Shown here piece after piece: positions 15,300-63,179 of a DNA stretch of 64,000 bases. Every line of letters begins with the position of its first letter. Position 1 is the first letter of the stretch. The notes beneath the pieces were generated by a model. The model saw only the letters and a list, made by a program, of their open reading frames with translations, had not been told where the DNA came from and did not search any database. A program made the position numbers and the translations under genes. This DNA comes from Megalonaias nervosa (taxonomy: Eukaryota; Mollusca; Bivalvia; Unionida; Unionidae): NCBI GenBank assembly GCA_016617855.1, contig JAECUM010000800.1:1-64000 (forward strand), written 5' to 3'.

Positions 15300-17760
15300 T
15301 TCGTGGCTTTGTTGACTCTCGGTATATACTGTCAAGGCTGGATGTTATTCTGATGCCAAAGAAAGGTATGCATTTGGTTCGTTTTCATATAATGTTTGGT
15401 ATTTAGGTTTAAAAGAGCCCCAAAAGCTGGGTTCAGAGGGTTTGATCTTAATTTGAGAGTATAATGTATAGAAAGTATTTCTCTACGATGTGATAAAGGT
15501 GGCTCGTTCGCTTCAACGAGAAGGCTTTCATATGAGGATGTTTTAATGCTCCCAGAGCGAGTATTATTCCTTGATGATGAACCGAGTCAAGCATCAAGTA
15601 AGACTTTCTAGCTGAACCATACGCAACGCAACCATAGTCCAGTTTGGAGCGAGTAAACGTTCTATATAAATTCAGGATGATTTTCCAATCAGTACCTGAG
15701 TCAGCGTGCGCTACTACTTTAAGTAAATCCAAAGATTTCAAGCTTTTAGCTTTCAAGTTCTTGATGTGTGGAATGAAGGTCAATTTTATATCGAAGACAA
15801 TACTTATAAATGAATGCGTACTGTTTCTGACTTTGAGAATTTGAAATTGTTGGCACTGGCCCAATTTTGAATCTTGTTTATATTTTTTTATAATTGTCTT
15901 TCAGTTGTATGCATGTGTTTTGATCGATAGCATATTAAGAAATCATGAACGTATAAAGATCATTCCACACCAGGAGCCAAACACCTGGTGATGCTATTAA
16001 TCTTGATGTTGAAAAACGTTACAGATAAAATACTACCCTGGGGCACACCCATCTCTTGTTCGTACATATCAGAGAGGGTGGAACCCACTCGTACACTGAA
16101 TTCCCAGTTTGAAAGTTTGAAATAAAAAGAGCAGATGGCCTTTTAGACCCAGATCGTGCAGGTCATTCAGTATTCCGCACTTCTATGTCGTGTCATAGGC
16201 CTTTTCTAAATCAAAGTAAACCGCTACTAAATGTTCCTTCTTGATAAACGCGTTATGAATAAACGTTTCCAGTCTAACCAGATGATCATTGGTGCTAAGG
16301 CCATATTGAAACCCACTGCGAAAAGGAGATCATGTTAGTTTCCAAGTACCATACAAGCCGGGAATTGGTCATTCGTTCCATTGTTTTACACACACAGCTC
16401 GTCAGTAAAATGGCGCAATAGTTGGTAGGATCATCTGCTATCTTTACCTGGTTTGGGAATTGGTATTATTGATGCTTCTTTCTAATCTTTTGGTACATTA
16501 TCAGTAATCAACAAATCATTGACGATTTCCACAAATGATGTTAGTGATGGTTCTGGTAGTCGTTTAAAAAAGTCGTAATGTATTTCGTCAGGCGGATGTA
16601 TCATGGGTCTCGTTCAAAGCTTCCGTTAGCTCCAATAATGAAAACTGTTTATTATAACTTTCCGAGTTATCGGCTGTGAATTTCAATTTTTTCCTCTGAC
16701 TTTTTAATCTTCGGAATGCTTCTTAATAATTAGACGAGGAATTTATCTACAAGTATATTTGCGACGTCATGTTTGGAGTTGAAATTGTATGTTTAACTTC
16801 AGATTTCGGAAAGAATTGTTTTCCCTTTCCATTTATTTTGCGGATCGTGTCCCAACAATCCTTATAACGGAACGAGAGTTTAAAAGTAGAAACGTATTTT
16901 TTCCATGACGCTCTTTAATTTTCTTTGACGGTGCGGCGAGGTTTTAGCCCGGAGAATACGGTACTCATTTAAATTTTCGGGGGTCAGACGATAATTAAAT
17001 TTTCTCAGAGTTTTCGGCGTTGTCTAATGGCTTCTTTACATTCTTTAGTGAACTAAAGTTTTTGGGTTCTTTTACAGTTCGGTGAGGACTGGGAATGTAT
17101 TCTTCTTCAATGTTGATTAAAATGGAAGTAAAATGTTCAACAGGATCATTAACGTTTAAAACGGTATCCATATTAAGTCTAGTTTGATCGAGGCATTAGT
17201 GACCTTTCAATCATAGTCCAAAAGCAGCAAAGGAGAACAAATTGTCAAATCGATACACGTTTATGTACTCGTTCCTGGATGTAAATACGTCGGAGATCTG
17301 GTGTTATATAGACACAAATCGTGTCTAGAAATGAAGTCTTCTCCTTTTTGACTTCTGTCACTTATGTGATTTGATCCCCATAAAATGTGATGGCCATTAA
17401 AATCCCCGAATAGAACTAATGGCGTGGGCAGATGCTTAACAATGTTGTCTAATTTGTTTGGTAGCAGGTTGGTGTTTGATAGTATGTAAATAGAACAATT
17501 GTTAATACCCGATGTAGAGCGACGCTTACAGCAATGGCTTCCAAATCTGTATTTAAATGGATGACGCTATTATGGGCCCTATTGTTCAAAGGAACTGAAA
17601 CTGCTCCTGAGGCCCTGTCAACATTTTTAAAGTAGGTGTTAAAAAGGGAGTAGTTTTTAAGGGTGCTGGATCATGTTTGTTTAAAAGCAGAAGAATATCT
17701 CTGTAGTCGATGTTAAGTCCTCGACAGTTTTATTGTATGATAGTGTGCTTCACTGTGAAT
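15300..17760 (-). pseudogene. LINE ORF2 remnant, copy 3
   Basis: Pieces of the I-like ORF2 are recognisable on the minus strand. At 15,448-15,800 is the RT thumb region (FDIKLTFIPHIKNLKAK, LYRTFTRSKLDYGCVAYGSA). The motif-A region is at 16,190-16,215, motif B near 16,030-16,060, and endonuclease sequence is at 17,200-17,740. Many frameshifts and stops interrupt it; no product is expected. Confidence 0.8.
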
Positions 17761-17929
17761 ATAAACTTAAGAATCGTGCAATTAGGTTAGACCTTTCGCG
17801 AGGGAGATCTGTGTGCCTATTTATCGGGGGGGGGGGGGACAACAATGTTACATTGTTTGATGTTAGGTTTGGAACCACCCTGAGCACACTGAGCAGTTTC
17901 CTCTACATCCATGTCGCCAAACCGATTGT

Positions 17930-18520
17930 ACAGCTTTATAGGGTAATCGGATCCCTCTTTCTACTTGCTTGTGATCTGTCAGTTTGGTGACTTGTGGTGG
18001 CGTGTTGTTGAATGTTGTGGAGTTGCTCTACACTCGGATTCCTGACGAGAAAGGTCTCCGCATCGGCTACATATTTGGCTTTTCGAGCAACGGTCTTCAC
18101 GATGGTAGCATTTCTGACACCTGAAAAATCGATTAGGATTGGGTATGTATATCTCAATCTTGACGTGTAAAAATCCATCTTTGACCACTTCAGTTACTGT
18201 TGATTCGTTGAAGATAAGCATGATTGTGTTAGTGTCCTGCAAAGTGTTGTTACGTTTTATGCGAATTCTACGGACGGCAGTGACACGTTCCTTTTTCATC
18301 CCATTCGATCATTGCTGGTGTGAGGATCGGTCCCATTATTGTCTTTTCTATTAAGAATGAATAAAGTACCACAAGCGGTTTTGAAGCACCTTTTGATTGT
18401 ATCACGTTGACGCGTGGGAATGACTCCACGCCATATGCCTCGCCGTCCGAGTCATATAAAGGTTTTGTTCCTTTTGAGTTGATTTAGAAAAAAGAAAAAA
18501 AAAAATGCTCCATGTTGGTT
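17930..18520 (-). pseudogene. LINE ORF1 remnant, copy 3
   Basis: A 106-codon open piece at 17,979-18,299 contains VRRIRIKRNNTLQDTNTIML and two zinc knuckles, CRCGDLSRQESEC-like and a decayed FRCQKCYHREDRC. This is clearly related to ORF1 of copies 1 and 2. The third knuckle and part of the C-terminal region are deleted, and upstream codons are frameshifted. Confidence 0.8.
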
Positions 18521-19064
18521 TGGTTAAAATTCAGCACCCATTCTACCCGCCCGTCACGCAGCCCAACAAGGGGTCACTTTTCAAGTGCCAGGGATACACA
18601 CTATGTTATACTCAGCATGTAACATCACCTCCCGATTCATCCCGTAAGATATACTCATTCGGTAAAGTTACCTCCCGATTAACCCGTTAAGCCACCGCCT
18701 TCTAGGTATTCTTCTGAGAGTTAGGAAAAGGAAAGCTAAAGGTGTATACTATAGGGGCAACGGCGGTATCAACAGAGCAACAAGGAAAAAGATAAAGAAA
18801 ATGAGCGAGCAATGAAAAACCTCATAAGGTTCGGCGCGACCAGCCGATTTGTCGAGACCGGGTCAATCCCGACCACTCGTCTACAAGTAGAGGCCAAAAC
18901 AATGTATGGCACTGGAAAGTCTCTGCTCAACTACCAGGATCATTTCCTCCCCGACACAGGCCGCAACCCACGGCAAACAGATTGCCATTACTTAGTAGCC
19001 TCTTACAACTCGTAGTGAGGACACGTTGGACCAATTCTAAAATCCCCGACCTGCAGGTGGACTG

Positions 19065-23291: not shown

Positions 23292-26200
23292 CTATAACTT
23301 ATGATAAATATTTACTTCCTTCAGGAAGTCTATAATATCAGAAACGCTAACTGTATCAAAGAGCTCCCTAATGTCATGCACATTGTAATAATGATTACGC
23401 GTAGGTTGGAGGTCGAAACACTCCAACATAAAGTGCTTAACGGTGAATGGTTCATTGCAAGCTACGCACTCTGGTGGGTCCTCTCCTTTTAGTATGTAGG
23501 AGTGGGTTAAATAAGTATGACCAATTCGAATTCTTGCAATGACTACCTCCTCCCTACGGACGGCTCTGTAGGAAGGAGTCCATTCTCCTAGGGTTGGCTT
23601 GATGGCATGAAGTTTGTTATTCGCGGCATCATTCCATGATGCCTGCCATTTCTGTCGTAAACATTCTTTGATACTACGTTTAAAATCAGTATACGGTGTA
23701 CTAAAATCAGATGGTTCTAGTGATAGGGCCATTTTAGCAGCGCGGTCTGCTTTGTCATTACCTTTAATTCCAATATGGCTGGGTAACCAACAGTATACTA
23801 TATTGTGGGAGGTACTCAGCTCAGTATGTTTAAGGAGAACATTAGCTAATAATGGATTCTCCAGTTTTCTATTATGTAGTGACTGAAGTACTGATAGTGA
23901 ATCGGAGAAGATGATGCTATTTAAAATCCGTTTGCTTTCAATATATTGCAATGCAAGATCTATTGCTCTGATTTCGGCTGAAAAAATTGATGTACCATTT
24001 GGCAAACGAACTTTTGTTGTGTATTTTCCACTAACGAAGACTGCAGCAGCCTTTTCCTCATCTTTTGATCTATCAGTATATATTCTTGTATAATTTTCAA
24101 ATTGGGCGAGGAGTTCATGGTAACAGTTGTGGAAGATGGAAGGGTTTGTCTCCGATTTTTTTCCATCGTGTAACGTGAAAAGTACCTTTGGTTGTTGAAG
24201 CAGCCAGGGAGGTGTTTCGGAGACGGCCGTTTTCAGAATTTTTGAAAGTTCAATTTTGGTACTGTCAAGGCATGGTAATATTCTAATGCCAAAGGTAGGT
24301 GTGACGTTTGGTTTATTGTCATATAAGGTTTTATATTTGGGTTCAAAAACAGCCGAAAAAGCAGGGTTCAGAGGGTTTGAGCTTAATTTGACAGCATACT
24401 GTGCGGAAAGCATTTCTCTACGTTGTGATAAAGGTGGTTCGTTCGCTTCAACGAGTAGGCTTTCACACGGGGATGTCTTAAATGCTCCCAAGGCAAGTCT
24501 TATTCCCTGATGATGAATTGGGTCTAGTATCTTCAAATAGGACTTCCTGGCTGAACCATAGACAACGCAACCATAGTCTAGTTTCGAGCGAATAAATGTT
24601 CTGTATAAACTGAGTATGACTTTCCTATCAGCACCCCAGTCAGTGTGCGCTTCTACTTTAAGTAAATCTAGAGATTTCAAGCATTTAGCTTTCAAATTCT
24701 TCAGGTGTGGAATAAAAGTCAGTTTTCTGTCGAAGACAATACCTAAAAATTTGCTTCCTCAACAACTGGAATAGGTGTTCCGTCCAGCGTGAGTTTAGGT
24801 CCATCGTGATGTCTTCGTAACTGACAGAAATGCATACATACAGTTTTTGATTTCGAGAATTTGAAACCGTTAGTATTGGCCCAATTTTGAATCTTGTTGA
24901 TATTTTGCTGTAATTGTCTTTCAATTGTATGCATGTGCTTGGATCGGTAACATATTAAAAAGTCATCAACATATAGAGAGCAATCCACACCTGGAGTCAG
25001 ACACTTGGTAATGCTATTAATTTTTATGTTGAAAAGCGTCACCGATAAAATACTGCCCTGGGGCACACCCATCTCTTGATCGTGCATATCAGAGAGGGTG
25101 GAACCCACTCGTACCTTGAATTCCCTGTCTGAGAGGAAGTTTGATATGAACGAGGGCAGTCGGCCTTTTAGACCCAGATCGTGTAGGTCATTTAGTATTC
25201 CGTACTTCCACGTTGTGTCATAGGCCTTTTCCAAATCAAAGAAAACTGCTACTAAGTGTTCTTTCTTGATGAAAGCGTCGCGAATAAATGTTTCCAGTCG
25301 AACCAGATGATCATTGGTACTACGACCATAACGAAAGCCACTTTGGAAAGGAGATATTAAATTGTTGGTTTCCAAATACCATACAAGCCGAGAATTGATC
25401 ATTCGCTCCATTGTTTTGCATACGCAGCTAGTTAATGATATAGGTCTATAGTTGGTAGGATCTGCGCTATCTTTGCCTGGTTTGGGAATTGGTATTACTG
25501 TTGCTTCTTTCCAAATTTTTGGTACATTACCAGTAATCCATAAATCATTGAAGATTTCCAGAAGAACTGTTAAGGATGGTTCTGGAAGGTGTTTCAAAAA
25601 CTGGTAATGTATATCGTCAGGCCCAGCGGATGTATCATGGGCCTTATTCAAAGATTCCATAAGCTCCGACAATGAAAACGGTTGGTTATAACTCTCTGAG
25701 TTATTCGATGTGAATTTCAACCGTGTTTTTTCTTTTTGAGCTTTTAATCTTCGGAAAGCTTCTGAATAATTGGACGATGAGGAATTTTTGGAGAAACAAT
25801 CAGCAAGTACATTAGCTATTTCTTGTTTGGTATTGAAATTGTTATTATTTAGCTTCAGATGTCGGAATGAATTGTGTTTTCCCTTTCCATTTATTTTGCG
25901 GATCGTGTCCCAAACTTTCTTTATTGAGGAACGAGAGTTTAAAGTTGAAACATATTTTTTCCATGATGCTCGTTTACTTTCTTTAACTATGCGGCGAGCT
26001 TTGGCCCGAGCAATACAGTACTGAGTTAAGTTATAGGGCGTTGGGCGATTATTAAATTTTTTCAGTGCTTCTCGGCGTTGTCTAATGGCTTCTTTACATT
26101 CTTTAGTGAACCAGGGTTTTGGGGTTCTTTTACAATTCGGCGAGGACTTAGGAATGGATTCTTGAGCAATCTCAATTAAGACGGATGTAAATTGTCGAAT

Positions 26201-26971
26201 AGGATCAATATCGTTTAGGACGGTATTCCTGTTAAGTCTAGCTGTACAAAGTGTTTCAAACTTGGCCCAGTCAGCTTTCTTTAAATTCCACTGTGGAAAC
26301 GTGTCATCAGTTGTAACTTTGGTGTTCTTAAGAGAGATTGGAAAGTGATCACTGCCGTGAAGGTCATCAGCGATCTTCCAATTATAATCCTAAAGTAGTG
26401 AAGGAGAACAAATTGTCAAGTCGATACAAGTGTATGTACCAGTTCCTGGGTGCAAGTACGTCGGAGATTTGGTATTAAATAGACACAAGTCGTGTCTAGT
26501 AATAAAATCTTCAACCTTTTTGCCCCTGTCGCTTATGTAATTTGATCCCCATAAAATATTATGGGCATTAAAATCACTGAGTAAAACAAATGGTGCAGGA
26601 AGTTGTTGAACAAGCGTGTCTAATTCGTTTGGTAATAAGTTGGTGTTTGGTGGTATGTAAATAGAACAAAAAGTAATCACTCGATGTAGAGTGACACTCA
26701 CAGCAATAGCTTGCAAATTTGTGTTTAAAGGAATGACGCTATGTGGGGCTCTATTGTTCACAGCAATAGAAACCCCTCCCGAGACCCTGTCAACGTTCTG
26801 TAAGTAGGTGTTAAACAGGGAGTAGTTTTTAAGTGTGATGTTGTCTGTTTCTTTTAAAAAGGTTTCCTGAAGGCATAGTATTGCAGGATCATATTCGTTT
26901 AAAAGCAGGAGAATATCATTGTAATTGGCTTTAAGTCCTCGACAATTCCATTGTATGATCGTGTTCTTCAT
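23292..26971 (-). pseudogene. LINE ORF2: endonuclease, reverse transcriptase, RNase H (copy 2)
   Basis: About 1,226 codons in order. The endonuclease (IIQWNCRGLK, CLQETFLKE, DFNAHNILWGS) spans about 26,971-26,390. The RT has FFDLEKAYDT near 25,230, MGVPQGS near 25,060 and YVDD near 24,965. The RNase H at 24,090-23,700 has IYTDRSKDEE, SAEIRAIDLALQYIE, IIFSDSLSVLQSL and SHIGIKGNDKADRAAK, the four-acid core of type I RNase H. A Cys/His-rich stretch CVACNEPFTVKHFMLEC follows near 23,450. Damage relative to copy 1 is a TTG-to-TAG stop at 26,390-26,392 and a one-base deletion near 24,750. RNase H would remove element RNA after first-strand synthesis. Confidence 0.92.
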
Positions 26972-27039
26972 TATAGGTTTAGATTGGAGATTTTGGAGCT
27001 AGGTTAGACTTTTCGCGGAGAGAATCTATATGGTTGTTT

Positions 27040-28337
27040 CTACGGAGGAAGTACGGGGATGATTTTTTTGTTAGGTCTGGAGCTACTTTGAGAACATGGA
27101 GCAGTATCTTCTGCATCCATGCTCTCAATGTCCCCAAACCTGTTATAGAGTTTGATGGGATCTTCTGACCCCTTTTGCTGCCTATTTCCTTGTGATCTGT
27201 TTTTGTTCTTAGGTGATTTCGGTTGTTGAGTATTATTGAATGTTGTTTGGGTAGATGCCGTGGTTTTTTGTGCTTGGTAATGGGGGGTGTTAGTGCTTGA
27301 TGTTGACTCGGGTGCATCTGTCTGCGTTTGAGCGTCCTTCGTTGCCTTGGGATTGTTCTTCACTACAGTGGAGAAGGATGGGCCAGGAAGAGATGTTTTT
27401 GCCTGTACAAGCTTTCTGGCCTCTGGATAGGGAATGTTGGATGTGTATTTAACTCTCTGTATTTCCTTCTCCTGTTTCCAGGTATCACAATCCTTGGAAT
27501 TGGCGTGGTGCTCCTTTCCACAGTTGACACAATGCGGAGTGGCTCTACACTCAGATTCCTGGTGAGAGTGATCTCCGCATCGGCCACATATTTGGCTTCT
27601 TGAGCAGCGGTCTTCATGATGACCATATTTCTGACACTTATAACATCGAAGTGGATTTGGTATGTACACATCAACCTTCACTTGCAGAAAGCCAACTTTG
27701 ACCACTCTGGGTACTGTTGGCTTGTTGAAGGTGAGTATAATGGTGTTGGTGTCCTGCAGGTTGTTGTTACGTTTAATACGTATTCTACGGACTGCAGTGA
27801 CACCTTCGTTTTTCATCCCTTCAATGATATCCGTGTCGTTGACTCCAGCCAAGTCACGACAGCGAATCACGCCTTTGGACGAATTGAGTGTTGTGTGGGC
27901 GAACGAGGTCACTGGAATATCGAAAAATGTTGTCATTTTCTTGAGGTTTTCTGTTTGACCTCGTCGCTCACACTCGACAAGTAGGCAGCCCGATTTTAAC
28001 TTTTTAACACCTTTTGGTGTTCCAATCAGTCCCATAATTGTTTTCTCGATCACAAACGGAGAGAGTACATTAAGCGGTTTTGTGGCATCTTTAGATTGTA
28101 TAACCATGAAGCGTGGAAATGAATCCACACCACATGGTTCGTCATCTGAGTCAGATAAGTTTTGGTACGCTTGAGTTGATTTTTTTTGGAAATATCCATG
28201 TTGGTGGATTTAAAATTCAGCACCCGTGCTCCCCGCCCACCAAGGAGCCCAACAAGGGGACACTTTTCAAGTGTCAGGGATACACAGATGTTATACTCAG
28301 TAGGTAAATTCACCTCCTGATTCATCCCATAAGACAT
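27040..28337 (-). pseudogene. LINE ORF1, zinc-knuckle protein (copy 2, one frameshift)
   Basis: Almost identical to the intact ORF1 of copy 1, but a one-base deletion in an A run near 28,157 splits it into an N-terminal piece (28,337-28,050) and a 362-codon piece (28,128-27,040). The latter keeps all three CCHC knuckles. If translation started at the internal methionine at 28,128, the RNA-binding half could still be made. The stop is about 70 bases before the ORF2 start, as in copy 1. Confidence 0.88.
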
Positions 28338-28748
28338 ACTCAGTCGGTAAAATTACCTCCCAATTGACCCGTTGAGCCACCGCCTTCTAGGAAGTCTTCT
28401 AAGACTTGGAAAAGGGAAAGTTAAAGGGATAGAATGTAGGGGCAACGGTGGTATCAAGAGAGATACAACGAGAAAGATAAAGAAAGTGAGCGAGAAATAA
28501 AGACCTCCTAGGGCTCGGCGTGACCAGCCGATTTGTCGAGACCGGGCCCATCCCGACCACCCGTCTAGAAGAAGTAGAGGCCAAAGTAGTGCATTGCATC
28601 GGAAAGCCTCTGCTCAACTACCAGGATCCTTTCCTCCTCCGACACGGGTCGCAACCCACGGCAAACAGGTTGCCTCTACTTAGTCGCCTCTTACGACACG
28701 TAGCGAGGCACGGCGGGCCAATTCTACAACCCCGGACCCGCAGGGGGA

Positions 28749-29719: not shown

Positions 29720-30291
29720 CTACCTTATCACCCTATACAAACTTAATGTATGATTTAGTTCTGCTTCAATCTTTGCTGATGGATTTGGAAGGACTGAGTA
29801 AGGATGAATGAATATGAGCAGAACAAGTGCCTTTACAAGAACTATTTGACCTACTACTGAAAGATGTTTTTGACTCCAGATTGCCAGTATTATATTTGTC
29901 TTCGTTACTTTCTTCCGGGAATTAATTTCCACCATTTGTGGTAGGTCTGAAGACAACTCGATGATAAGGAGTGTTAAGTTCGAGAAAAACCAGTTTATAT
30001 CCATATCGGGACGTATTCTTCCATTGCAGAATTTCTTGTTTCCAATATAAATAACCTTTTTTTCTGTTATGTTATATTAAGTACAGAACAACAGAAAAGA
30101 AAGTCGTGCACGATATTAATAATTGTTTTAAGAAAACGTTGAGATCCAAAATCAAAAATAAAAGCGTCATCGGCATATTGTCCCAGTTTATATTCATTGA
30201 AATCAAAAATGGGTCCCCGTACATCCACATTTTGCTTTAAATTTATAGCCAAAATATCACCACCGGGGACTTTCTTGAAATCCTGTAGCAA
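29720..30291 (-). pseudogene. Tx1/L1-like reverse transcriptase relic (palm-thumb part)
   Basis: On the minus strand the piece at 30,291-30,067 contains LAINLKQNVDVRGPIFDFN followed by EYKLGQYADDAFIFDFGS. YADD is the RT motif C, and the context is that of Tx1/L1-type LINEs. After a break the next piece (30,004-29,720) gives NIILAIWSQKHLSVVGQIVL and a hydrophobic thumb-like segment with HPYSVLPNPSAKIEAEL. The fingers, motif A and the endonuclease are missing. Upstream it runs into a minisatellite. It is a dead fragment and distinct from the relic at 8.2-9.5 kb. Confidence 0.75.
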
Positions 30292-30610
30292 ATATGATCG
30301 TAGACGGACTTCCTATAATTTCGTGACAAATATGTAATCAAAGACAGACCTTCCAATTCCGTCGCAAAATAAGTTTAGACGGTCTTCTTATAATACCGTA
30401 AAGATATACTCGTAGGCAGACCTTCCTATGATTACGTAGCAAGAATATTCGTAGACGGACCTTCCTATGATTATGTAGCAAAGATAAGCGTAGACAGACT
30501 TTCATCACAAAAATAAACTTGGACCTTCCTATAATTCCGTGCAAATATAAGCGTAGACAGACCTTCCTATAATTCCGTAGTAAAAACAATATTCCTATAG
30601 TTCTTTGGTA
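30292..30610. repeat. Minisatellite, unit of about 40-50 bases
   Basis: About seven diverged units carry the core GTAGACxGACCTTCCTAT(A/G)ATT followed by CCGTxGCAAA. Clear starts are near 30,300, 30,339, 30,377, 30,413, 30,453, 30,489 and 30,551. The open frame on the minus strand (repeated KVCLR) is an artefact of the repeat. Confidence 0.75.
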
Positions 30611-33600
30611 ACAATAAGCTACAAGAATTGTTATTGTCTGCGACATTTTAATTAGAGACTCAATATCTCACACCGAAACATTTTTCTTTAGAATTTTCTC
30701 ACTACCAAAACTGCCTGCATACTTATCTACTTGTGTTTGATAGGAAATTAAGTTTAAATTACGACCAGTGAAACAAGATCAAAAAATAAAAATGTTCCTA
30801 TCGACCCCATTTTCATTAAGGATTTACAATAACTATTGTATTTTACAATTGGCATTAGTAAATTATTTGACTAACAGTAAGTGATGCAATGCCTATATGA
30901 TCTATGTTCGAATCTCTGTCGAATACGAAATTAAAATTCTCCAACCTGCAGGAAAATGCTATTTATTCGTATTTATATATAATAAAAAAAACTTACTATT
31001 ATCAAGCATTTTCTTGTAGAACCCAGGGACAGAATTTTACGTTCTGTGTGGTGTATATTTGTAACTCTCGCTGTGTAATTGAATAAACCCTATAGTTAAT
31101 CCCTCACTACGGCTAATCCTGTAATGGATAGGTCTAATTTTGAACGATAAGCTCCGCCCACTTAGTTACTGTTGCTGCGGCTCATACGGACTCGTGGTAC
31201 TAAATTAGTTCCCACAGTAAACCTATGGAAACATAATGATATTCAAAATTCAGTAACTGTACATTTCTGAGTGCTCATGATCAAACCTATATTTATCGAT
31301 AAAGATGAAACCTGGATGACAGCTTTTCTTTAGAGAAAAGGATATGCGCCGTGACATTTACTGGACCCATTTGTGATGGAAATATGTGCTTTCAATTCCG
31401 CACCAAAGAGTCGGGTGCTAATTTCAGTAATGAGTGTTCCAAACTCAAGACTGTTAAAGGACTGAAATTACATCAAGAAAATAATGTCTCTATTTTGTTT
31501 AAGTTACTACTAGGATAAGCTCTTAAAATATTCTTTTTCCTACAGAATAACTTCATTATCAACCAATGCTGGCCACCCAAACCCATATATACTCTATTTT
31601 GTGTTGACCCATTTCCAGGCTGGTTCCCATTTTTCCATACAATTAGTACCGTGTGTTCACAAGCTATCGTGAAAATGGCGGATCCAGTAGCATCAGCAAC
31701 AGATTCATTGGAGAATATTTTCGACAATATTTCTGAAACATTCTTACCTGATTGCAAGATTCTTTCAGTTCGTGCATTAAATAAAAGATTGAATTACTCC
31801 ACACAACGATTTAGTCATAAAATTAGTGTTTCGATGGCGGAAATCAGGTCAAAGTTATAACATATTCCTGGCGATCTATGGGGAAGAACGAACTTCCTTA
31901 CAAAGTAGAATATAACATTTTGCTAGAAAAGGACAAAATAACAAAATCTTTCTGTTCTTGCAAAGTTATGCATACTTATTAATTATCAGATTTTCTAGTA
32001 TGGCTTCAGTACTTTTTAAAAATTATAAATAAAATTTTTGTTTGTATCAGTTACATTTATATCATCTTGTGTAATTGTTACATAAGAATAAAACAAGTAT
32101 TTTTATATCTGCAATTAATAATGTCATTATGTTTAGGAAAACAGATATTAAAGTTAAATAAATAAATAAACACTTTATACCAAGTTGCCTGAGTGATTGA
32201 AGGAAATGTTTTACGTTCTTTAAGGCTCGCTAACATGTCTCCTCAGTTGAACGGATGAAACATTTCATAAGTGTATCATTTATAAACTAATAAATATAAA
32301 TTATATCAGCACATTTGCAAAAGGATCTTTTATAATCTCTTAAAAATGAAGGAAATAATAATGGCACATCGAAATAAGCAACAGCGTGCACGTTGACGGG
32401 ATATATTTTTATCCGCTTTGACCGTTGTTCGCTAATTAATGCGACTCGTTTCATCATTCTGATGTTATAACACTTTACAGGTGTTTTAAAATCATTAAAT
32501 TTGCAAGAAATTAGTTTTATTTGAAGTCAAAATGGCAAATATATATGGCAGGATATACCTGATTTATAGTCCTAAGCCTAATAAAGACAAAATAAATACT
32601 GTATTACTGTTTGACCTTTTCATGGGGTGGTGTTTTGTCAACTTGACACCAGTTACAGCAGTCAAGTTTAAAAATTTTAATAAAATCAGCACCAATGAAG
32701 CATGATGCAGGAATGAAATGTTCAAATTTAATTTTTGAAAGAAAAACAAACCGAAGTAATAAAAATACAAAAATAAACAGCACACATACACAAAGTTTCT
32801 CTATTGCATGTAATATTATGGTTCTAATAAGATATACAATTTGAACAGAAGCATACAATTAGCATAAAATTGTATTCATCATTTTCACAAGCACAACCAA
32901 ATACTATCATTATTTAAAAACAGTTTTGTGTATTTATATGAAATTTGATTATACATAATGCATCACTTCCAACACAGACATTTTTCCATGTTGGTGTTTG
33001 GTTTGAGATTGTTTTTAAAAATCTTTATTGAATCATTTCATAATAATGACAATCTGCATCTCATGTGTCCCAAGCACCACGGCGAATCATTTTTCCGATA
33101 AATTTTCAGTGATTTTCTGTGTAATCTTTTAAATTCGTCTGCAATGTAATACAAGAGTAATCAAGCGTAACTATACAGTGAAATCGATACCTACTTTCGA
33201 TTGGTCAATGTGCCCAGTTTGATTGACAGTCAGTACTATCCATTAGTTATTTATCCTGACAATACAAGAGTAATTGAAACATTCTGTCACACTTAAATAG
33301 AGGGATATACATGTAGCAGGATATTTTAGAATTTTATATATTTATGTTTTAATTAGGCAGAATTAGGTATTTTATTATTTTATATAACTACTGTTCATTG
33401 CTGGCTGAAATAAAATCACCAGTTGCAATTAATGTGTTGTTCTCACTTTACACACATTGTGCCAATTAGGCAACCCTGAACCGGGATTACTTGTTCGAGT
33501 TTTGTTCACTATGAGCAACGAGGCTACTCTGATTACAGTTCATTATAATTTGTTCCACTATAGTACAAGTAATAAGTAACTTACGGAATGATCAGTTTAC

Positions 33601-34027
33601 AACTTGTCTGTATAAACAACATGGAATGAACAACATATTAACTATAATTATATAGTCATTCCAGTAGATTGTTTCTGAAGTATGTTGTCACAGGACTGGA
33701 GTAAGGTTGGTAGTTTTACTTTTTGCACTTATTATTATGTCAGTTTTAGTGTGGCCTTTTGTAAAGTGTGCATTTTTTTTTTTTATCTAAGTTTATTTCT
33801 TAAATTCAGTTATAAGCTCTTGGGATGAAATGTATGATCATATTAAATTGCCACCTGTGATATTGTTTTCGTGACATCATTACAAGGTAGTATCTTGTGG
33901 AGAAGTTTTCACACAAGGAATAAAATGGAATGGAAATATCTATATTGTACATAGTATTTAATTGGATAGTTATCTTAAAATCTACGTCAGGCATTTGCGC
34001 AGTATAAAAACTGGTTAAGCAGAAAAG

Positions 34028-34029
<2 letters not shown>
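30611..34029. other. Non-coding AT-rich DNA, one unassigned small ORF
   Basis: A plus-strand ATG in good context (GTGAAAATGG) at 31,675 opens 61 codons, MADPVASATDSLENIFDNIS and onward to 31,860. I do not recognise it and see no splice donors. A poly-T run lies at 33,774-33,785. No other coding signal is seen. Confidence 0.35.

Positions 34030-34086
<57 letters not shown>
34030..34086. repeat. (TA)n microsatellite
   Basis: Uninterrupted TA dinucleotides. Confidence 0.95.
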
Positions 34087-34088
<2 letters not shown>

Positions 34089-34441
34089 TATTTTATTATG
34101 ATGACGGTATTGTTCTGCATATTTTTAGTAAATGTATTTTATTGTATTAGTGTGTGGAAGCAAGAAAAATACATGTCTTTATTTACCAACCTGATTCACA
34201 ATAAAATAAACCAAATTTCTTTCAGCAAAACGGGGATTGTCTTTTCTAGGCAAGTGCTGTAACATATTCATGAAACGAATATACAAATTCAAAGCAAATA
34301 GCAGCACAACTGCTACACCTAATTGCCATCTATGATAACAATATCCTTTGAAATAGCTTCCATGTAGCTTTCTCCAGCAGTGTGGCCTTTCTCAATATGT
34401 TGAATGAAAACCTCTAGTATAAGAGTTTGTTTTCTTATTTT

Positions 34442-34509
34442 TTATACTGTTGAAGTATTTAGGACGCTGCTATAGACGTGATTTCCAGATTCTGACTGTC
34501 TTTCGTACC
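34442..34509 (-). CDS. Candidate terminal exon of a receptor gene (cytoplasmic tail)
   Basis: On the minus strand a pyrimidine-rich acceptor (TTTTCTCTATATAG) precedes a 68-base coding end. Read in phase 1 it gives YERQSESGNHVYSSVLNTST plus a final V and stop at 34,442-34,444. Two tyrosines in the pattern YExx...HVYSSV resemble short tyrosine-based signalling tails that I recall from molluscan single-pass receptors, where pairs of YExL and HxYxxL-like motifs are common. It follows the exons at 38,748, 40,258 and 43,662 in the same orientation. If the exon at 40,258 is joined directly, the frame fits. With the 28-base exon at 38,748 an extra exon of length 3n+2 is needed; one weak candidate exists at 36,568. 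No transcript evidence is available. Confidence 0.45.
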
Positions 34510-34865
34510 CTATATAGAGAAAACATTATCTTTTGTTAACAACGGTGGCTTACCATACACGTGTGCGCAAATCATATGGAATACCATACACATACTGTGT
34601 AAAAAATTCATCCGAAGCAGTTTTTATTTGTGCAGATGCAACGGTATAACCACTAATAAATATCAATAACTCCGAAAACATATTACCGCTGTGCCCCATT
34701 ACAAAACTCTCTAGAAACTTTTGAAGACAAATAGTTGAAAATGTCATACATTTCACCATGTCATACGGTTCGACATTATATCACATTCCACTGGTCTGCA
34801 GCAGTATATTGTAATTTATACTGATGGAAGGTTTACTGACCAGCCATTCAAATTATGTTACTTAC

Positions 34866-35039
34866 TTACAAAAATACATATTGAATTTTTTTAGGTGGTG
34901 GTAGATAAATTTGCCATATTGCCTGTCGTGCTAACCACGCTGCAGCAACAGAACGTGAGACTTTTGCTGCTTCAGATAATTTAGTAATAGCTGATCTGCC
35001 TCTCCAAAATCCTCTTGGGCTATAATAAATGGATTCCAT
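34866..35039 (-). pseudogene. Adintovirus/Polinton-like integrase, N-terminal fragment
   Basis: An ATG at 35,039 opens 57 codons: it begins MESIYYSPRGFWRGRSAITK, continues with a helical segment (EAAKVSRSVAAAWLARQAIW) and QIYLPPPKKI, and stops at 34,866. The YYSPRGFWRG start and the WLxxQAxWQIYLPxPKKI block are the hallmark of the N-terminal domain of the retroviral-type integrases found in adintoviruses and related Polinton-like elements. The catalytic core with its DDE residues is absent: similarity ends right after KKI, at about 34,884, where a GTAAGTAAGT stretch follows. The start lies 16 bases after the stop of the PLA2 gene on the same strand, a virus-like tight packing. The fragment cannot be enzymatically active. 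Confidence 0.75.
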
Positions 35040-35055
35040 TATAATATTTATATAA

Positions 35056-35556
35056 TTAATTACCAGCCCCTAGCATTATTTTACTTTTCATGGCAGATTT
35101 TACTAGAAAACTAGCTAATTTATCTCTGACAGATTTATTAGGCATAGAATTTAATGCATGAATCAATTTTACATCTGCGAGATGCCTTTGTTGCAAATCT
35201 TTACTTTTATACGCAACATCATGAACATGACACGCTTTATCAATCTTATTTACTGGATGCTCTCCTGGTCTTGGTTGATCTTGATTATCAAATCGGATAT
35301 CAAGTCGAGTTCCGGGACCGCAATAATTATATCCTGGTAAGTGTTTTTCCCCCGGATATTTAGCCCACGGAGTTCCTGGTAATTTTCCTAATAAAGCGGC
35401 TATATCTCCACCTGTCTTTGTTTTGACAAATTTGTATTTTTTCGTGCCACATTTTACACATTTGCCCGTCAGAGCACGTCGTTTATTTTTTGTTGTTATT
35501 GTAGTTAATTCAGCAGTGGGTGTAGACGTCCTACACCGAACACAATATAGACTCAT
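35056..35556 (-). CDS. Viral DUF5679 + phospholipase A2 protein (adintovirus/Polinton-like), intact ORF
   Basis: The probable start is MSLYC at 35,556 (166 codons); the frame is open 22 codons further upstream. Residues 1-45 have two CxxC pairs (CVRC, CVKC) about 30 residues apart with KRRALTGKC between, the pattern of the small zinc-ribbon DUF5679 common in large DNA viruses. Residues 70-125 are a parvovirus-type PLA2 domain: YNYCGPGT for calcium binding and DKACHVHDVAY with the catalytic HD pair and distal Tyr. In parvoviruses this virion phospholipase opens the endosomal membrane; adintoviruses carry similar domains. No stop or frameshift interrupts it, unlike both neighbours. Its start codon is only 12 bases from that of the divergent ATPase. 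It lies within a proposed host intron. Confidence 0.8.
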   Translation of the reverse strand: MSLYCVRCRTSTPTAELTTITTKNKRRALTGKCVKCGTKKYKFVKTKTGGDIAALLGKLPGTPWAKYPGEKHLPGYNYCGPGTRLDIRFDNQDQPRPGEHPVNKIDKACHVHDVAYKSKDLQQRHLADVKLIHALNSMPNKSVRDKLASFLVKSAMKSKIMLGAGN

Positions 35557-35568
35557 ATTATTTATTAT

Positions 35569-36236
35569 ATGGATATAATTGACTTTTCGGCGACACGAAA
35601 ACAGGAGCCAGTGAAGCATCATCCAGCATTACCAAATTCGATAAGGATGATTATAATAGGTCCATCTGGATCGGGTAAAACACAACTACTATTAAATTTA
35701 ATAATGAGATGGTTAAATGGAGTAAATTGTATTTAGTAGCACCATCCGTAGATGATCAACAATGTTACGAAGTACTTAAAGATTTTAATGAAAATGCAAA
35801 ATTGCGGAATGAAGACGGTAATGATGTTGTTGATTTTATTACCGATATTGATGAAGCCCCATCTGTAGATGACCTAGATGGATTTATTAATAATTTAGTG
35901 GTGTACGATGACGTTATGTTGGACAGACAAACAAATCCAGCTAGAATATTTTCCAGAGGTAGACACAAGAATACAGATGTTATATACGTTACTCAGCGTT
36001 ATACACAAATACCTAAAGTGATCAGAGACAACTGCAATATTTTGGTTGTGTTTAATGGAGTAGATAATTATACTCTACAAAATATTTATTATACTTGGTG
36101 TTCAGGAGATATGGATATGATTAAGTTTAAAAACTTTTTTGCTCAAGCACAAGCTGTTCCGTTTGGATTTATTACAATAAATCTACATGATCCAAGATCC
36201 AGATATCGTGTAGGTCTAGATAAAATCTTTGGTTAA
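35569..36236 (+). pseudogene. Viral FtsK/HerA-type DNA-packaging ATPase, frameshifted
   Basis: The ATG at 35,569 opens MDIIDFSATRKQE and reaches a Walker A motif GPSGSGKT near 35,660, but this frame ends at a TAG at 35,734-35,736. The next frame (open from 35,709) begins KWSKLYLVAPSVDD and carries Walker B (LVVYDDVMLD), FSRGRHKNTDVIYVTQRYTQ and the C-terminal FNGVDNYTL to the stop at 36,234-36,236. The two frames differ by a single-base indel somewhere around 35,709-35,720. The size (about 220 residues) and motif set fit the A32-like packaging ATPases of adintoviruses, virophages and Polintons, which drive genome entry into capsids. The damage, and the lack of any neighbouring capsid or polymerase gene, mark this as an endogenous relic. 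Confidence 0.85.
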
Positions 36237-36240
36237 TTAC

Positions 36241-36507
36241 AGCAGCAGGCAGGGTGAATGACAAAAATTGAGCGACCCGCGAGTAAACTAAACGCACTAT
36301 AACAGAAAAAACAAAAAGTCAAAAATAAAATAACAAAAATGAGCTAACCCAAACGATTTATTATTCGTTTTTCAAACTATACGGTAATAATAAAAGTTAT
36401 GAGGTTCGGTTTAGTGTTATTGACCTTTTTTTTCAGCCTCTGTAGGAACCTTATGTTTTAGACAATTTGCTCGAAACCAATTTGTAGGGTTCACCCTGCC
36501 TGCTGCT
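36241..36507. repeat. 267-bp foldback with perfect 18-base arms
   Basis: AGCAGCAGGCAGGGTGAA at 36,241-36,258 is exactly complementary to TTCACCCTGCCTGCTGCT at 36,490-36,507. Inside, similarity between the arms continues patchily (ACAAA-AATTG, a CGAG...TAAA block, A-rich to T-rich), so the whole stretch can fold into one imperfect hairpin. It begins four bases after the ATPase stop codon. It could be a MITE-like insertion or an end structure of the viral element. I see no obvious target duplication. Confidence 0.8.
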
Positions 36508-36567
36508 AAAGTGTGTGAATATTTGTATCTATCATAAGGAAGGAAATTATTAGGCACGGAAATTTAC

Positions 36568-36599
36568 AGTTTTCTCGCCTTTGAGCCAGATTTGTGCAC
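36568..36599 (-). CDS. Weak candidate small exon of the receptor gene
   Basis: Thirty-two bases between a CGTCAG acceptor and a CT|GTAAAT donor on the minus strand. Entered in phase 2 and left in phase 1, it would connect the exon at 38,748 to the terminal exon at 34,442 without a stop. The acceptor has a poor pyrimidine tract, so this is only a hypothesis. Confidence 0.15.
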
Positions 36600-36663
36600 C
36601 TGACGCTAGAAGTCTTCCTGACAATCAAGGGGTATCAAATTTATGGTGTTGTAGCTATAGTCT

Positions 36664-37120
36664 ATTGTTACGTTTAGGCTCATTCAAAAGTAACAAAAGA
36701 AAAGAGTGAAACCAACAAGCTTTGTGAGTTTTAACAAAAATAATTTATTTCCCTAGAAAACACGGTGAAAAGGTGAAAATAGAAAATAGGACTTACAGTT
36801 TGTGAAGACAATCCAAACGTTTATTCTAGTACGGAAAAAATACAAGTCCTATCACTAAATAATTTTAACTGAATCCAGGTTCGAATCTTGATGACGTTCC
36901 AAGATGGAGGATGATGACGTTCCAAGATGGAGGATGATGACGTCAGGTGAAGTCTTTATACGAATCTCAAGAGTTCCACGTTGAACCACAACTTGTCATG
37001 TTTAAATTTAGAATAAATTTCTATCAAATGTCTTTGTCACTTGTATAGTTCTCCAGTGAATAAATTATTATATTCTAAAATATAGATTAACTTCTGAACA
37101 AGTTGTCATCTATGATAAAA
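36664..37120 (+). repeat. LTR-like dispersed repeat (TGTTACG family), solo copy
   Basis: It begins near TGTTACGTTTAGGCTCATTC and matches in part the start of 49,145-49,300 (shared AAACCAACAAG(C/T)TTTGT and a T/A-rich continuation). At 36,890-36,935 a 23-base unit GATGACGTTCCAAGATGGAGG is duplicated in tandem, followed by a TGACGTCA site that has the form of a CRE. The limits are approximate. A solo LTR of the Ty3-type element at 49 kb is possible. Confidence 0.4.
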
Positions 37121-38747
37121 CATCTCGAGCACCAAAAATAACGTTTAGGTGTGGTGTTTTTGTCGTTTCTTGTACTACATCTTGTCAAACCCATAAAGCA
37201 TGTGTGCATATAGAATGTTATCTAATATTTTCCAAGACTCGTCCCAGGGCTATGAAGCAGTGCTTGGTGTATAATTTGGCCGCAGAGATAGAGTCCTCAT
37301 TTAATTACTTAGGTGTAGGGGATCTAAATCGGTCAAAGTTGTGACCTTGAAGGAAATATCTCCATAACAAATTTGTATTGAATCTATGCAACCACCACTC
37401 TTTCTTGTAACTAATACATGTATCAGGCTTAGGCCGGAAATTCCTATACGTCAACAGATTGGCCCTGGAATGCATATTAGCTAAATTTGGTAAGGCATCT
37501 TTTCATAATTATTGCTGAAGAAAGCGGAAACACGTTATCATGCTTTGCAACTGTATATATTTTAAAGGAATGGGGATCTCAGTAGTTATACAATAACGAC
37601 CCTATCAGACCCATGACACATATTTTCACACGTAGTAGTAAATTGCAAAGTCCAGAAGTGTTGATTATGTACCCATTTTACCACTACTAATCCAAGGTTC
37701 ATGTATGAACGTAAATGTTTAGTGTCAATATCACACTTCTGTGATACAATACGGGAGAATAAAACGAACAAGAGTTCAAAAGGAAATGAACATTATGTTT
37801 CAAAACACAGAAAACAGTGCTTCAAACTGAAGATTTCTTTATTCTGGTTCAATATAACACGATGCTATTTTGGTCTTTTTAAGCATTTCTAAATATTGTT
37901 TTTCTTTGAGATGATTTAAAAGTAGGGTACAATTGAATCCAATTGAATATATCTAATGAACTGAACAATCATTGTATTTCTTTTAATCCTTGAATATGCC
38001 ACGCTAAATTAAGAAGTCTTGCACGTAATTACTCCATTAGCCTCTAAGAGACATTCTCTGATATTTCATCATAAACAGTTCATTAGAGATACTAGTTTAC
38101 TTCAAGTTTTGGCCAATTTTTCTTTTACACATTAGTTTATTTGTATATTTGCAAGATTTGTCCAAAATGGTGATGGAATGATGAAAAGATCAAAGGCACG
38201 TACTGGTGTATCCTGCATTTAACTTACAAGATGACATTGCTGAACCATGCTGTTACAAGCCGTGTGGACGGATGGACAGACAAATGGAAAATTTAATTAT
38301 CCGGATATCCAGCACATCGACGTGGACCCTAATCAGGGCAACCCAACAAGCATTGTTGTTATCAGACATCGTATATTGTTTAAAAATCCTTTCATATCAA
38401 ATGGACTTTTGTTTGATGTAAGACGTGTACAGTTTTATTACAGTCTGATGATAGCTGCTTTAATCTTGATTAAATTAATTATTACATATTGTATCTCAAA
38501 AGATGTGTAACAGACAAGGTTAACAACATTCTATTAATTACAAAACATCCTTCTTCAAATAACGATGTTCAAAACTACTGAAATTATGAAACTGTGTGGA
38601 ATATATGATGTTATTAACTAGGCATTCTTCTAGTAATGAAGAATTTATCTTTATCTCAGCTACCACTTCATAAAAGTTGCGGTGACTTTAAATTAGCATG
38701 TGATTTTACAGTTTAATAAAAATAGGAAAAAATTTAACCGTACTTAC
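37121..38747. other. Non-coding DNA (proposed intron)
   Basis: No supported gene. Open stretches such as 38,247-38,510 carry no recognisable motif. Confidence 0.4.
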
Positions 38748-38775
38748 TGAGTATTGGCTTGCGAATCTGATGAAC
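38748..38775 (-). CDS. Candidate microexon, receptor cytoplasmic tail
   Basis: Minus strand, 28 bases. The acceptor CAGTTATGCCTTGCAG and donor CTCA|GTAAGT are both close to consensus. In phase 1, following the exon at 40,258 (which ends GAT GAT G), it reads GSSDSQANT, giving a Ser/Asp-rich run typical of cytoplasmic tails. Because 28 is not a multiple of three, another exon must restore the phase before the terminal exon. The strength of both splice sites is the main support. Confidence 0.45.
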
Positions 38776-40257
38776 CTGCAAGGCATAACTGAATCAAATA
38801 CAATTGTTTTTTTTAAATACAAAAACCACATAAACAAATGAAATAGAATAGTTCGAACGAATTTAAGAAAGAAATAGTTACAGTACTTTTTCTTTAATAT
38901 CGAGAAGTTATGTTTAAAATAGTTTCATTCGTTTGATCAAAGAAAAGAAACTCCAACAGGCTTAAAACTTCAAATGTACTGACAACTGCATTGAAATAAA
39001 ATAGAACTAACAATCAATTTTGGAGCCCAATGAGCTTTGTGCACAAATCATCATGCGAATATTGGGTTGGTTAAAATTTCATGAAAATTAAAGGCTGCAG
39101 GCTGGAACTAAGCGAATCAATTAAGTTATTAATGGATGAGTTATTTAAGTTTACCTGCGCTCTGCCTAAATGTTACAAGATAATAATAATAATAATAATA
39201 ATAATTAATAATTAATAATAATAATAACTATATTCCTAATGCTTTCTGCAAATAACTGAGCATTCTCTATACTTTTGTCGGAATTTCGTGGACAGATTTC
39301 ATAATGTAGCGACGTGTATTTAATAGCAATTTGCATCCCTAGTGATCCACTCAATGACTTAAATTCAGAGGGAAAGAGAGACTAATATCGACAAACAAAA
39401 TCAAATGTATATAGGGTTATTTTTCTTGTATGTCTTCATGAGGAAATAATGGAATGGGTAATTTAATTTTTAATGATAATCGATAAGGGATAAAAAGTTT
39501 TTTTTACAGATAATGCCACATTTTAGTGCTCACTAGTTTCGATTTTACGAAATAACTAATCCCATAAAAGTAGCACGCACAAATCGACCATGGTTGGGCA
39601 GAAAAAGCGATCATGCTTAGTTTTTATCGAATGCATCATATTAGGATATGTGAGCTTTTTCGTTGCAATGATTACGGCTAGCTCGAAACTGTTTGCATTA
39701 CATGTTTGCTTTAAAAGGGATTTATCAAGAAGCACTAGGCGACTAATGTTCAGCGATAATATTGAACAAATATGCAATATATGTCGATGGACAAATCACC
39801 GCGCGAGAGAATTAGGCTACATCAATAATATTTTTTTCATCTAGATATAACGTTAAGCTCAAAACACACTTAACATAAACGACTATCCAACGAGAAATGA
39901 TAATTATTCAATGAATATAGGTTATATGGAATGGAAGGGGAGGTCAATAGCCATTTTTAAAATAAAGTATCCCACACTGTAATTGAAGCAACTCTACGTA
40001 ATGAGCTTCAGATGATCAAGATTTGCCCCAAACTATACAAATTGCATCTGACATCGTTGATATCACACACAAAAGATATAAGGCTACTTTTTAAGGAATA
40101 CAAATAACATTCTTACTGATTATCCAGGATATATATCGGGGTAATAGAGCAATTCATTAAAATTTGAAGTATATTCCTAAAAAATAATAAATCAAAAGAT
40201 AAAAAAGTAAAACATGGCGCAATTTGACATGTGATATAGTTTTCGAAAAGACATACC
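38776..40257. other. Proposed intron with (AAT)n microsatellite
   Basis: (AAT)n-type repeat at 39,180-39,228. Short open stretches near 39,590-39,844 on both strands look random. Confidence 0.45.
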
Positions 40258-40308
40258 ATCATCTTCCCTAGGTCCATAAGGTCCCATATCGTTCAGTGTC
40301 TGTTTCGC
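40258..40308 (-). CDS. Candidate exon, receptor cytoplasmic region
   Basis: Minus strand, 51 bases (17 codons), phase 1 at both ends. The acceptor ATATCTTTCTAACAG and donor GATG|GTATGT are good. Only one of the three frames is open and it reads KQTLNDMGPYGPREDD. That is the same phase in which the transmembrane exon at 43,662 ends and in which the 28-base exon at 38,748 reads well. Intron phase agreement across three independent exons is the best argument that this is real. Confidence 0.5.
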
Positions 40309-40834
40309 TGTTAGAAAGATATAAAGTGCATGAATTATGAATAATGCTAAGAAGAACACAATATGTTTATTTATTAGTCATAAAAGTCTATACACAACTG
40401 ACTGTATTTTATTTTTTAATTGCACGTGGGTCTATAATTATAAACAATGAGAGAGCGTTAAAATATTTCGCATTGTGAGTCAGTATTACATTTCATCATT
40501 GGTAGTGCATCTCGAATCACTTTTTGTCTTCTCTGGAAATATTTTGCTTTTCAATTTTAACGAGAGATTCCAATATAAATTGAAACTACTGGAGGTTTAA
40601 TTGTCGAAAAGTTTCCAGAAAAATCTTATTTATATTATTAAGAATCTTTTATTACACTTTATATTTTAATGCATTTTCCTTTTAGTAACCTACCTTTGAC
40701 AAACAAAGATTGCGCTTGATAGATAGGGATACAAATGATTTTAATACAATTATGCACGACTAGTAATTTCGAGAAAGCCACATCTGCTGAACGTGAATTG
40801 TAGAAATAAAGTTGGAAAATTTAAAGAGGCTTAC

Positions 40835-40885
40835 ATTCCTTCATCAATAATGCTTGTTCGTAGTCTATTTTTATGTTTGATATTT
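40835..40885 (-). CDS. Candidate exon, receptor cytoplasmic region (weaker)
   Basis: Minus strand, 51 bases, phase 1 at both ends, with acceptor GTGAATGTTTCTAG and donor GGAAT|GTAAGC. In phase 1 it reads ISNIKIDYEQALLMKE, with a tyrosine in an acidic context. A second frame is also open, and the acceptor is only moderate, so the evidence is modest. Confidence 0.3.
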
Positions 40886-43123
40886 CTAGAAACATTCACA
40901 TCGCATCTGTCATCTTAAGAAAGCACAAATATGGCTTCACTGATACAGCAGAGGTGACTTGAAGTTGAATGCTCGTCACGAAATTTCAGAATCGAATAAA
41001 GATTTTGAAAGAACCTTCTGATTGGTTTGTTATCATACATGTCTTGTGTAACGTCAAAAAGAATTTTACAGAGAAAAACAGGATTCATATGTTTTTGTAG
41101 CCTTATGTTTGAAGTTTGAAGCTAACTTTGATATGAACCTTACATCTGGAGATCACTACTCCCCAAAATATAACAAAATAAAACATTTAATAATAAAAAA
41201 ATATTCAGGTTACGAGACACCTGTAGTAGCAAAAGTAAAAAAGATGCTATATTATTCAATACTTGTTCATTTAAAACTTTCATAAAACCGGATGCAAATA
41301 TTAACAATAAATCTTACCTTTTGTCTTTCTTGCATCCTACAAAGAATAAAGAAAAGCAAGAATCAATGAATTAAGAGAAGACGTTGCAGATAATTACAGT
41401 GTAATGACTAAAATATTTTCACGTTTTAATGGTAAACAGACACAATATTTAGTGACTAGCAATTATAAACCATTGCACTAGAAACGGACAGTTCCGACTG
41501 AATTCTTTTGCATTCTTTATCGTGTATTGCGTTTTCTTTTGTGCAAAAAGATGCATGCTCAGCCTTTTTGTTTTTAAAAAACTAACAGAAGATAAATGCA
41601 GAAAAGCGAGAAAGATGTGGGAGATGATACGTGACCAAGCAACATGTTTTGAGACTGAGTAAATATGGATTTTCATTGACTGAAATTGGGCAAATATAAG
41701 AATATCTATGCTTTACAATTTCCAAGATAAGAAAGAACTTTTGTGGGCTTCCTTCAGTAGAAAACAAGGTTGTTCCTGGATATTTCCAGTTTAATGAACA
41801 TCTCTTGCAGAGTTAAATAATGACTTTAACTCATTTATATCCTTACTATTTTCCGAAACGAATGATTCAACAAATAATGAGCACCGAAGGTTTTCACAGA
41901 AGGTCGGTTAGTAAAGGAACATACCATTTCTTCGAGAACAGTGATACGTTGAGTCAATTGGTGGTTAGTAATTTTCGACAGTAGAGTAGAAGTGGTTTGT
42001 TTTGGGTTTTTTTAGGTGTTATTTTTGATTTTCCGATTAAATCGGGTTGTACTGACTAAAAATCCATTTTCTGATGGCATGGTGGAAGGCTGAGGGGACA
42101 TTTATTGTTGTTGTTGATGTTGTTGTTGTTGTAGGGTTTAACGCCATTTTTCAGCACACGATAGGCTATACATGGCAGCCAGTATTATTGGTGGAGGAAG
42201 AACACGGGAAAACCTGAGGGACATTTAAAATAAAAATTGAGTTTATTCTAGTCGTAATAGTGGCACCCAGTTAAGTTAATGGCGATGCATTGGATATTTA
42301 GTTGCAGCAGTGGTATTGGCGCATTTACCGAAAATCGTAGTAAAAGAAATACAGTAAAATATATTGAAATAATGGAAGACCTGTGAGTATTTATTGATGA
42401 TAATGCGCCAATATGCCAGTGCGGAGTGGAAAACAGAGACAACAAGCCCTCTATCATGGCCCTTTACACCAGCTGACATGAATATCAATGACGACATGTG
42501 AAGCGCATTAAAATTCCCGTCTCGATGCAGAAACAAAACCTTATAATACTAAAACTCAATATGACTTGTTACATAACGTATATTCCATTTTGGAACTCGA
42601 TTTCTCCTGAGGTCATTGGAAATTTATATCGTTCTTTCCCCAGAAGAATTCGTTGCACAAAAAAGTCTAAATTATATTCTTCAAACTATTAGTCAGATAT
42701 GTCAGTTGTCTTTTTTCCTACCTACATCGTCACTTTGGCATTTCGTAACGTTACAATATGAAATAATTACATCATAACACTGTATATATGATACACTAAA
42801 ATCCTTTGCAAATATACCACATTTACTCTGAATATATATTATTTCTATTCTGTGATATAAGCGTGCAGACTGTAAGTAGCATGTATTTAAACACAGATGT
42901 GCTTTTGGATGCTTTGATTGACGAAGTCATGGTTGTAATGTATGAATGCATGCATGCATGTATGTATGTATAGGTAGGTAGTTAGGTAGAAAAAGGCAGG
43001 ACATTTGGCAGGTATATCTGGTATCTTCTGCAAGAAAATTACGGAACATTTTATCTTCTCATATCATTATAGAAAACAGGTCATCTATGAAGAAATGCAG
43101 TTCAAGCAAATGTTTGTGCTTAC
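40886..43123. other. Proposed introns with scattered simple repeats
   Basis: It contains a (GTT)n-rich stretch at 42,105-42,137, followed by GGGTTTAACGCCATTTTTCAGC, which resembles the 3' ends of invertebrate SINE/LINE families. A GCAT/GTAT/GTAG tract lies at 42,945-42,990. No other exon is supported apart from the 19-base one listed separately. Confidence 0.4.
41318..41336 (-). CDS. Candidate 19-base microexon
   Basis: Minus strand. The acceptor CTTTATTCTTTGTAG and donor AAAAG|GTAAGA are both strong, enclosing GATGCAAGAAAGACAAAAG. In phase 1 it reads CKKDK, basic like a juxtamembrane segment. Its length is not a multiple of three, and inclusion would push the exon at 40,258 into a frame with an early TAG. 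It is therefore an alternative exon giving a short tail, or not an exon. Confidence 0.3.
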
Positions 43124-62745: not shown

Positions 62746-62885
62746 CTGACATAGCTCCCCATAAAATCCATCTGGGCAAGAACAGATAGCTGACCCAGGT
62801 GTGTTGAAGCAAGTACCATTTCCACAACGTTTCATTCCAACACTGCACTCATCAATATCCTGCTCACATCTACTACCATTGTATC
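62746..62885 (-). CDS. Exon with calcium-binding EGF-like domain
   Basis: Minus strand, 140 bases, between an acceptor GTTTTCACATAG and a donor TCAG|GTACAC. Entering in phase 1 it reads the tail of one EGF domain (YNGSRCEQ), then a complete cbEGF: DIDECSVGMKRCGNGTC, FNTPGSAICSC, PDGFYGELC. All six cysteines and the DxDE calcium signature are present. The beta-hydroxylation consensus lacks its aromatic residue, having Ala. EGF exons are usually phase 1 to 1, but the best donor here gives phase 0, so the 3' boundary may need correction. It is a piece of an extracellular or membrane protein. It has the same strand as the transmembrane exon at 43,662, which would be downstream. Confidence 0.75.
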
Positions 62886-63179
62886 CTATGTGAAAACAAA
62901 CCAAAGATGCATCAATAAATAAACTATTAATACTGGCAGTTAGAAACTCTTTCATTCCATACATGTATTCATATTCGGTTCACCTATGTGAAACAAACAT
63001 GTGGAATAAATAAATCTCACATGAGAGAGAGAGAAAGGAGTGAGTAATGCAAATTTATACACGAGACAAAACTTAGTTATACTATTTCTAAATTCCTCTC
63101 ACTTCTGTGCAAGCTTAGGTTTCTATATTTAATGTTCTTTCTTTGCCAATGCATTAATCCAGTGTCTTGATGATGTAAG
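62886..63179. other. Proposed intron
   Basis: Short (AG)n run at 63,023-63,034. No further exon is seen. Confidence 0.4.

Follow-up and report, generated by a model that had tools for sequence, protein, structure and literature searches.

The window, that is, the whole stretch of 64,000 nucleotides analyzed here (contig JAECUM010000800.1, positions 1 to 64,000), harbors at 34866-36236 a 1.4 kb locus that we read, with a probability of about 0.88, as the relic of a Maverick/Polinton-type DNA virus integrated in an invertebrate genome, most likely that of a mollusc. Several lines of evidence lead to this reading. First, genes for an A32-type packaging ATPase and a parvovirus-type phospholipase A2 (PLA2) are found side by side. 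Second, relatives of this PLA2 are fused to, or joined with, an rve integrase. Furthermore, a related contig carries polymerase-like, protease-like and adenovirus core-protein genes. Finally, the same three gene types have been published for insect Mavericks, as described in passages of PMC5803895. The tight packing of three frames noted in the original prediction was confirmed, with gaps of exactly 16 and 12 bases, and the DUF5679-PLA2 gene and the motifs YYSPRGFWRG, GPSGSGKT and VVYDDV are all present where they had been reported. The PLA2 gene and a 57-amino-acid (aa) candidate integrase frame downstream of it lie on the minus strand, 16 bases separating the PLA2 stop codon from that frame. 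The ATPase gene runs divergently from this pair on the plus strand, with 12 bases between the start codons of the PLA2 and ATPase genes.

The PLA2 gene (35056-35556, minus strand) is intact and encodes 166 aa. As a sequence-based prediction, its composition is certain: a zinc-ribbon DUF5679 domain (35428-35547) followed by a parvovirus-type PLA2-like domain (35146-35346), both on the minus strand. The protein matches PF08398 (E 6.8e-13, 49.1 bits, cut-off 23.9) and PF18930 (E 1.6e-11, above cut-off) in Pfam, and a protein search gave 76 relatives among 109 candidates, the best with 82% identity (E 4.7e-91), so that the family proposed earlier for this gene holds. The calcium loop and the catalytic HD pair of parvovirus-type PLA2 are present, and residues G80, P81, G82, H112, D113, Y116 and D128 are invariant across the 19 aligned PLA2 sequences. 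When the PLA2 profile was compared with PDB sequences, VP1 proteins of parvoviruses ranked first (best E 0.0035), as would be expected if the locus were a fragment of an endogenous parvovirus and the PLA2 its VP1 unique region. This is very improbable, however: the gene has no capsid part behind its PLA2 domain, where it ends, it has an N-terminal DUF5679, its relatives are fused to integrases, and the adjoining A32-type ATPase gene already contradicts a parvoviral origin. Parvoviruses are not known to carry such an ATPase or integrase.

The ATPase gene is found in two parts on the plus strand. The first (35569-35733) contains the Walker A motif GPSGSGKT (35659-35682); the rest (35679-36236, with homology from 35712) is in another frame, contains the Walker-B-like motif VVYDDV (35898-35915) and has a natural end, since its stop codon coincides with the end of the alignment to the closest relatives. 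Going by profiles and relatives, the predicted A32-type identity is certain. The piece at 35712-36233 matches Pox_A32 in Pfam (E 2e-05, 24.7 bits, cut-off 22.8) and, just over the cut-off of 20.3, the related Zot family (20.6 bits), while the Walker A piece alone reaches 21.9 bits against Pox_A32, just below the cut-off. A protein search gave 49 relatives among 193 candidates, the best with 89% identity (E 2.9e-100). Residues 1-49 are identical (100%) to residues 1-49 of the relative P0077, and the last 174 residues share 89% identity with the remainder of that protein. Between the two parts there is a single frame change, near 35712-35715, and the gene is therefore broken. Thus the A32-like identity given in the original prediction stands, but the unbroken gene that it implied does not.

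The 57-aa frame (34866-35039, minus strand; ATG at 35039, stop codon at 34866-34868, by direct reading) is probably the N-terminus of an integrase. This is suggested by its position, by the motif YYSPRGFWRG within the open reading frame 34869-35039, which we take to be a Maverick integrase motif, and by a mussel gene model (P0067) in which this kind of PLA2 is joined to an integrase core piece. The frame and its motif are where the original prediction placed them, but its integrase identity found no support in the databases: Pfam and PHROGs gave no match with an E limit of 1, NCBIfam and PDB sequences gave none with a limit of 10, and no relative turned up in IMG/VR. Plasmid records gave nothing either, and phage records gave only matches at E of at least 3. 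ATG frames of at least 57 aa number 103 in the window, so such lengths are common, and a profile search of its six frames detected no rve core.

Judging from the families named, the ATPase would pump the genome into the capsid in the living virus, the PLA2 would travel in the virion and open the membrane of the endosome during entry, and the linear DNA would be inserted into the host by the integrase. The present copy is dead as an element, because its candidate integrase frame is cut off by a stop codon after 57 residues and its ATPase gene has a frameshift. Beside these two decayed neighbors, the PLA2 frame remains open and retains its conserved catalytic and zinc residues, which is the pattern expected if the host had domesticated the PLA2 as a working gene while the viral neighbors decayed. 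Nevertheless, a single frame break and a single truncation over 1.4 kb indicate young decay, in which an open PLA2 needs no selection; we consider domestication improbable. Most simply, the still open PLA2 frame of the Maverick/Polinton-type relic reflects a copy of no great age.

Relatives of the PLA2 tie it to integrases. In elements of Polinton type, fusion of such a PLA2 domain to an integrase is frequent. The relatives are fused to an rve integrase, or the two are joined in a mussel gene model, and one protein (P0238) unites DUF5679, PLA2, rve and a chromodomain; among 119 proteins (P0126-P0244) searched with the DUF5679 profile, it gave the only match. The contig L001 (1-7163) carries a PLA2-integrase gene together with protease-like, Adeno_PX (adenovirus core-protein) and polymerase-like genes. 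In this contig and in P0129-like fusion elements, a PLA2 of the same family (44% over 116 residues for L001) stands directly before the integrase, as it does before the candidate integrase at our locus; unlike here, the two form one fused protein, no segment resembles the 57-aa frame, and L001 has no ATPase on the contig. L001, a Polinton-type virus contig, is filed in GTDB under a bacterial metagenome-assembled genome (uncultured Muriicola), where it is presumably a binning stray. Three further integrases (P0205, P0232 and P0240) have an N-terminal part other than PLA2; in P0205 and P0232, the two that were scanned, it resembles adenovirus protease, just under the Pfam cut-off. The slot ahead of the integrase core seems to be exchangeable. 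In the gene model ACJMK2_006905 (P0067) of Sinanodonta woodiana, DUF5679-PLA2 is followed by an integrase core piece, and the same species has a matching ATPase piece (ACJMK2_002855, P0109); both are known as predicted proteins only.

Whether the element is specifically an adintovirus, a member of the animal family with an OTU-bearing PolB, hexon and chromodomain integrase, of which the locus would be a relic, is a matter of even odds. According to passages of PMC11071296, the defining features of adintoviruses are a PolB with an N-terminal OTU-like domain, a hexon recognizable by BLASTp and an integrase with a C-terminal chromodomain. The gene set at the locus, the signs of an animal host around it (long interspersed nuclear elements with reverse transcriptase, an EGF_CA exon), the chromodomain-bearing P0238 and the Adeno_PX gene on L001 all agree with such an origin. 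On the other hand, no polymerase match was found at the locus with the polymerase-like query from L001, the candidate integrase frame ends before any chromodomain, and PMC11071296 does not contain the term "PLA2" and uses "phospholipase" once, for a patatin-like domain. The label is left undecided at this locus because the defining polymerase was not found there with the L001 query and no search for a hexon was made. What remains of the original assignment is an endogenous virus relic of Maverick/Polinton type, upheld by the ATPase-PLA2 pair, the relatives and the published gene set; the narrower name "adintovirus" was not shown.

Published Mavericks provide both likenesses and differences. 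Passages of PMC5803895 describe Sf Maverick 1 and 2 of Spodoptera frugiperda with an A32-like ATPase, a chromodomain integrase and a protein with a parvovirus-like PLA2; an ATPase of this kind, a retroviral-type integrase (here a candidate only) and such a PLA2 thus occur in one element in both cases. In the insect elements, however, a capsid-like protein has the PLA2 as its N-terminal region, whereas here the PLA2 lies in a small protein of DUF5679-PLA2 type, encoded next to the candidate integrase, and the integrase there has a chromodomain, while the copy here is a fragment. In vertebrate Mavericks, as presented in passages of PMC8097293, integrase and ATPase modules lie on different strands, as the candidate integrase and the ATPase do here; unlike in those elements, terminal inverted repeats (TIRs) or a 6-base duplication were not found for the window copy. 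PMC8097293 does not use the word "phospholipase".

Some observations weigh against a Maverick/Polinton-type relic. The Sf Mavericks keep ATPase and integrase in one tandem row of small genes (same passages of PMC5803895), whereas the ATPase is divergent here. The closest relatives are metagenome proteins on short contigs, and within the DNA compared, a PLA2 and an ATPase of this clade occur together on a single molecule in the window alone. Database searches (Pfam, PHROGs, NCBIfam, PDB sequences, IMG/VR) lend the integrase piece no support. In addition, the locus yielded no flanking TIRs, shared 6-base duplication, polymerase gene or protease gene; no search was made for capsid genes. Within 30000-42000, none of the 25 longest of 53 inverted-repeat pairs flanks the locus, and no 6-mer is common to both of its edges. 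As TIRs and the duplication are expected to be lacking in a truncated relic, we class the locus as derived from a Maverick, not as a Maverick.

Searches for further parts of the element gave little. PLA2, ATPase and fusion-protein profiles run over the six frames of the window gave no other match below E 0.7, and with the profiles used no further element gene was detected in the window. The L001 polymerase-like protein, the closest polymerase query used, gave no match (best E 0.42); a 1.4 kb fragment need not contain a polymerase gene. The L001 proteins added only weak matches; the best of these came from the protease-like protein, at 34696-34812 of the plus strand (E 0.086), and is taken as chance. 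A 267-bp unit resembling a miniature inverted-repeat transposable element (36241-36507), found by an inverted-repeat search, begins 4 bases past the ATPase stop codon and has inverted ends of 18 perfect bases. Simple repeats excepted, the window has no other 18-base inverted pair spaced by no more than 400 bases; no second copy of the end motif was found there at up to 2 mismatches, and no flanking duplication of 2-10 bases. The unit probably inserted separately, close to the right edge of the relic.

The surroundings are animal DNA, with non-long-terminal-repeat (non-LTR) retrotransposons bearing reverse transcriptase and an EGF_CA exon, and no tRNA was found in the window. One non-LTR retrotransposon is present in three copies (1-4341, 24408-28748 and 15327-19061). 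Two of them are 97.7% identical over 4.3 kb and one is about 72-82% identical in pieces; reverse transcriptase was found in the two near-identical copies, the only ones scanned. The EGF_CA-like exon (62701-62976, minus strand) is a sign of an animal gene. A 23-bp unit occurs in 2.4 perfect tandem copies at 36889-36943.

Taken by itself, the copy is ordinary: a known class gains a further member, a Maverick relic that is likely from a mollusc and has a compact gene for DUF5679-PLA2. It changes little, because PLA2-bearing Polintons are already published (passages of PMC4642659 and PMC5803895) and Mavericks are common in animals, molluscs included. Parvovirus-like PLA2 was noticed in Polintons in 2015, and such lipases were proposed to be packed in the virion and to aid entry (passages of PMC4642659). 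As to molluscs, PMC10294476 reports Mavericks in every genome that it analyzed, and the Maverick row of a table in PMC8905726 gives 7,091 and 6,453 in its two number columns. The coupling of PLA2 and integrase in the relatives is a more interesting lead than this copy. Such a fusion was not found in the phospholipase passages of several Polinton/Maverick papers, a limited search that is no proof of its being unpublished, and no mention of DUF5679 was found in the literature searched. Tentatively, the window may sample a large, little-described Polinton branch of aquatic animals in which virion PLA2 and integrase are genetically coupled, the two being (probably) adjacent genes here, joined in the mussel model and repeatedly fused in relatives. 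If so, one polypeptide or transcript would carry both the membrane-breaching and the DNA-inserting activity, and the integrase would belong to the entry machinery and come into the cell together with the packaged genome. The PLA2-integrase fusion of the relatives, if it works as one protein, would connect virus entry with integration in a way that can be tested.
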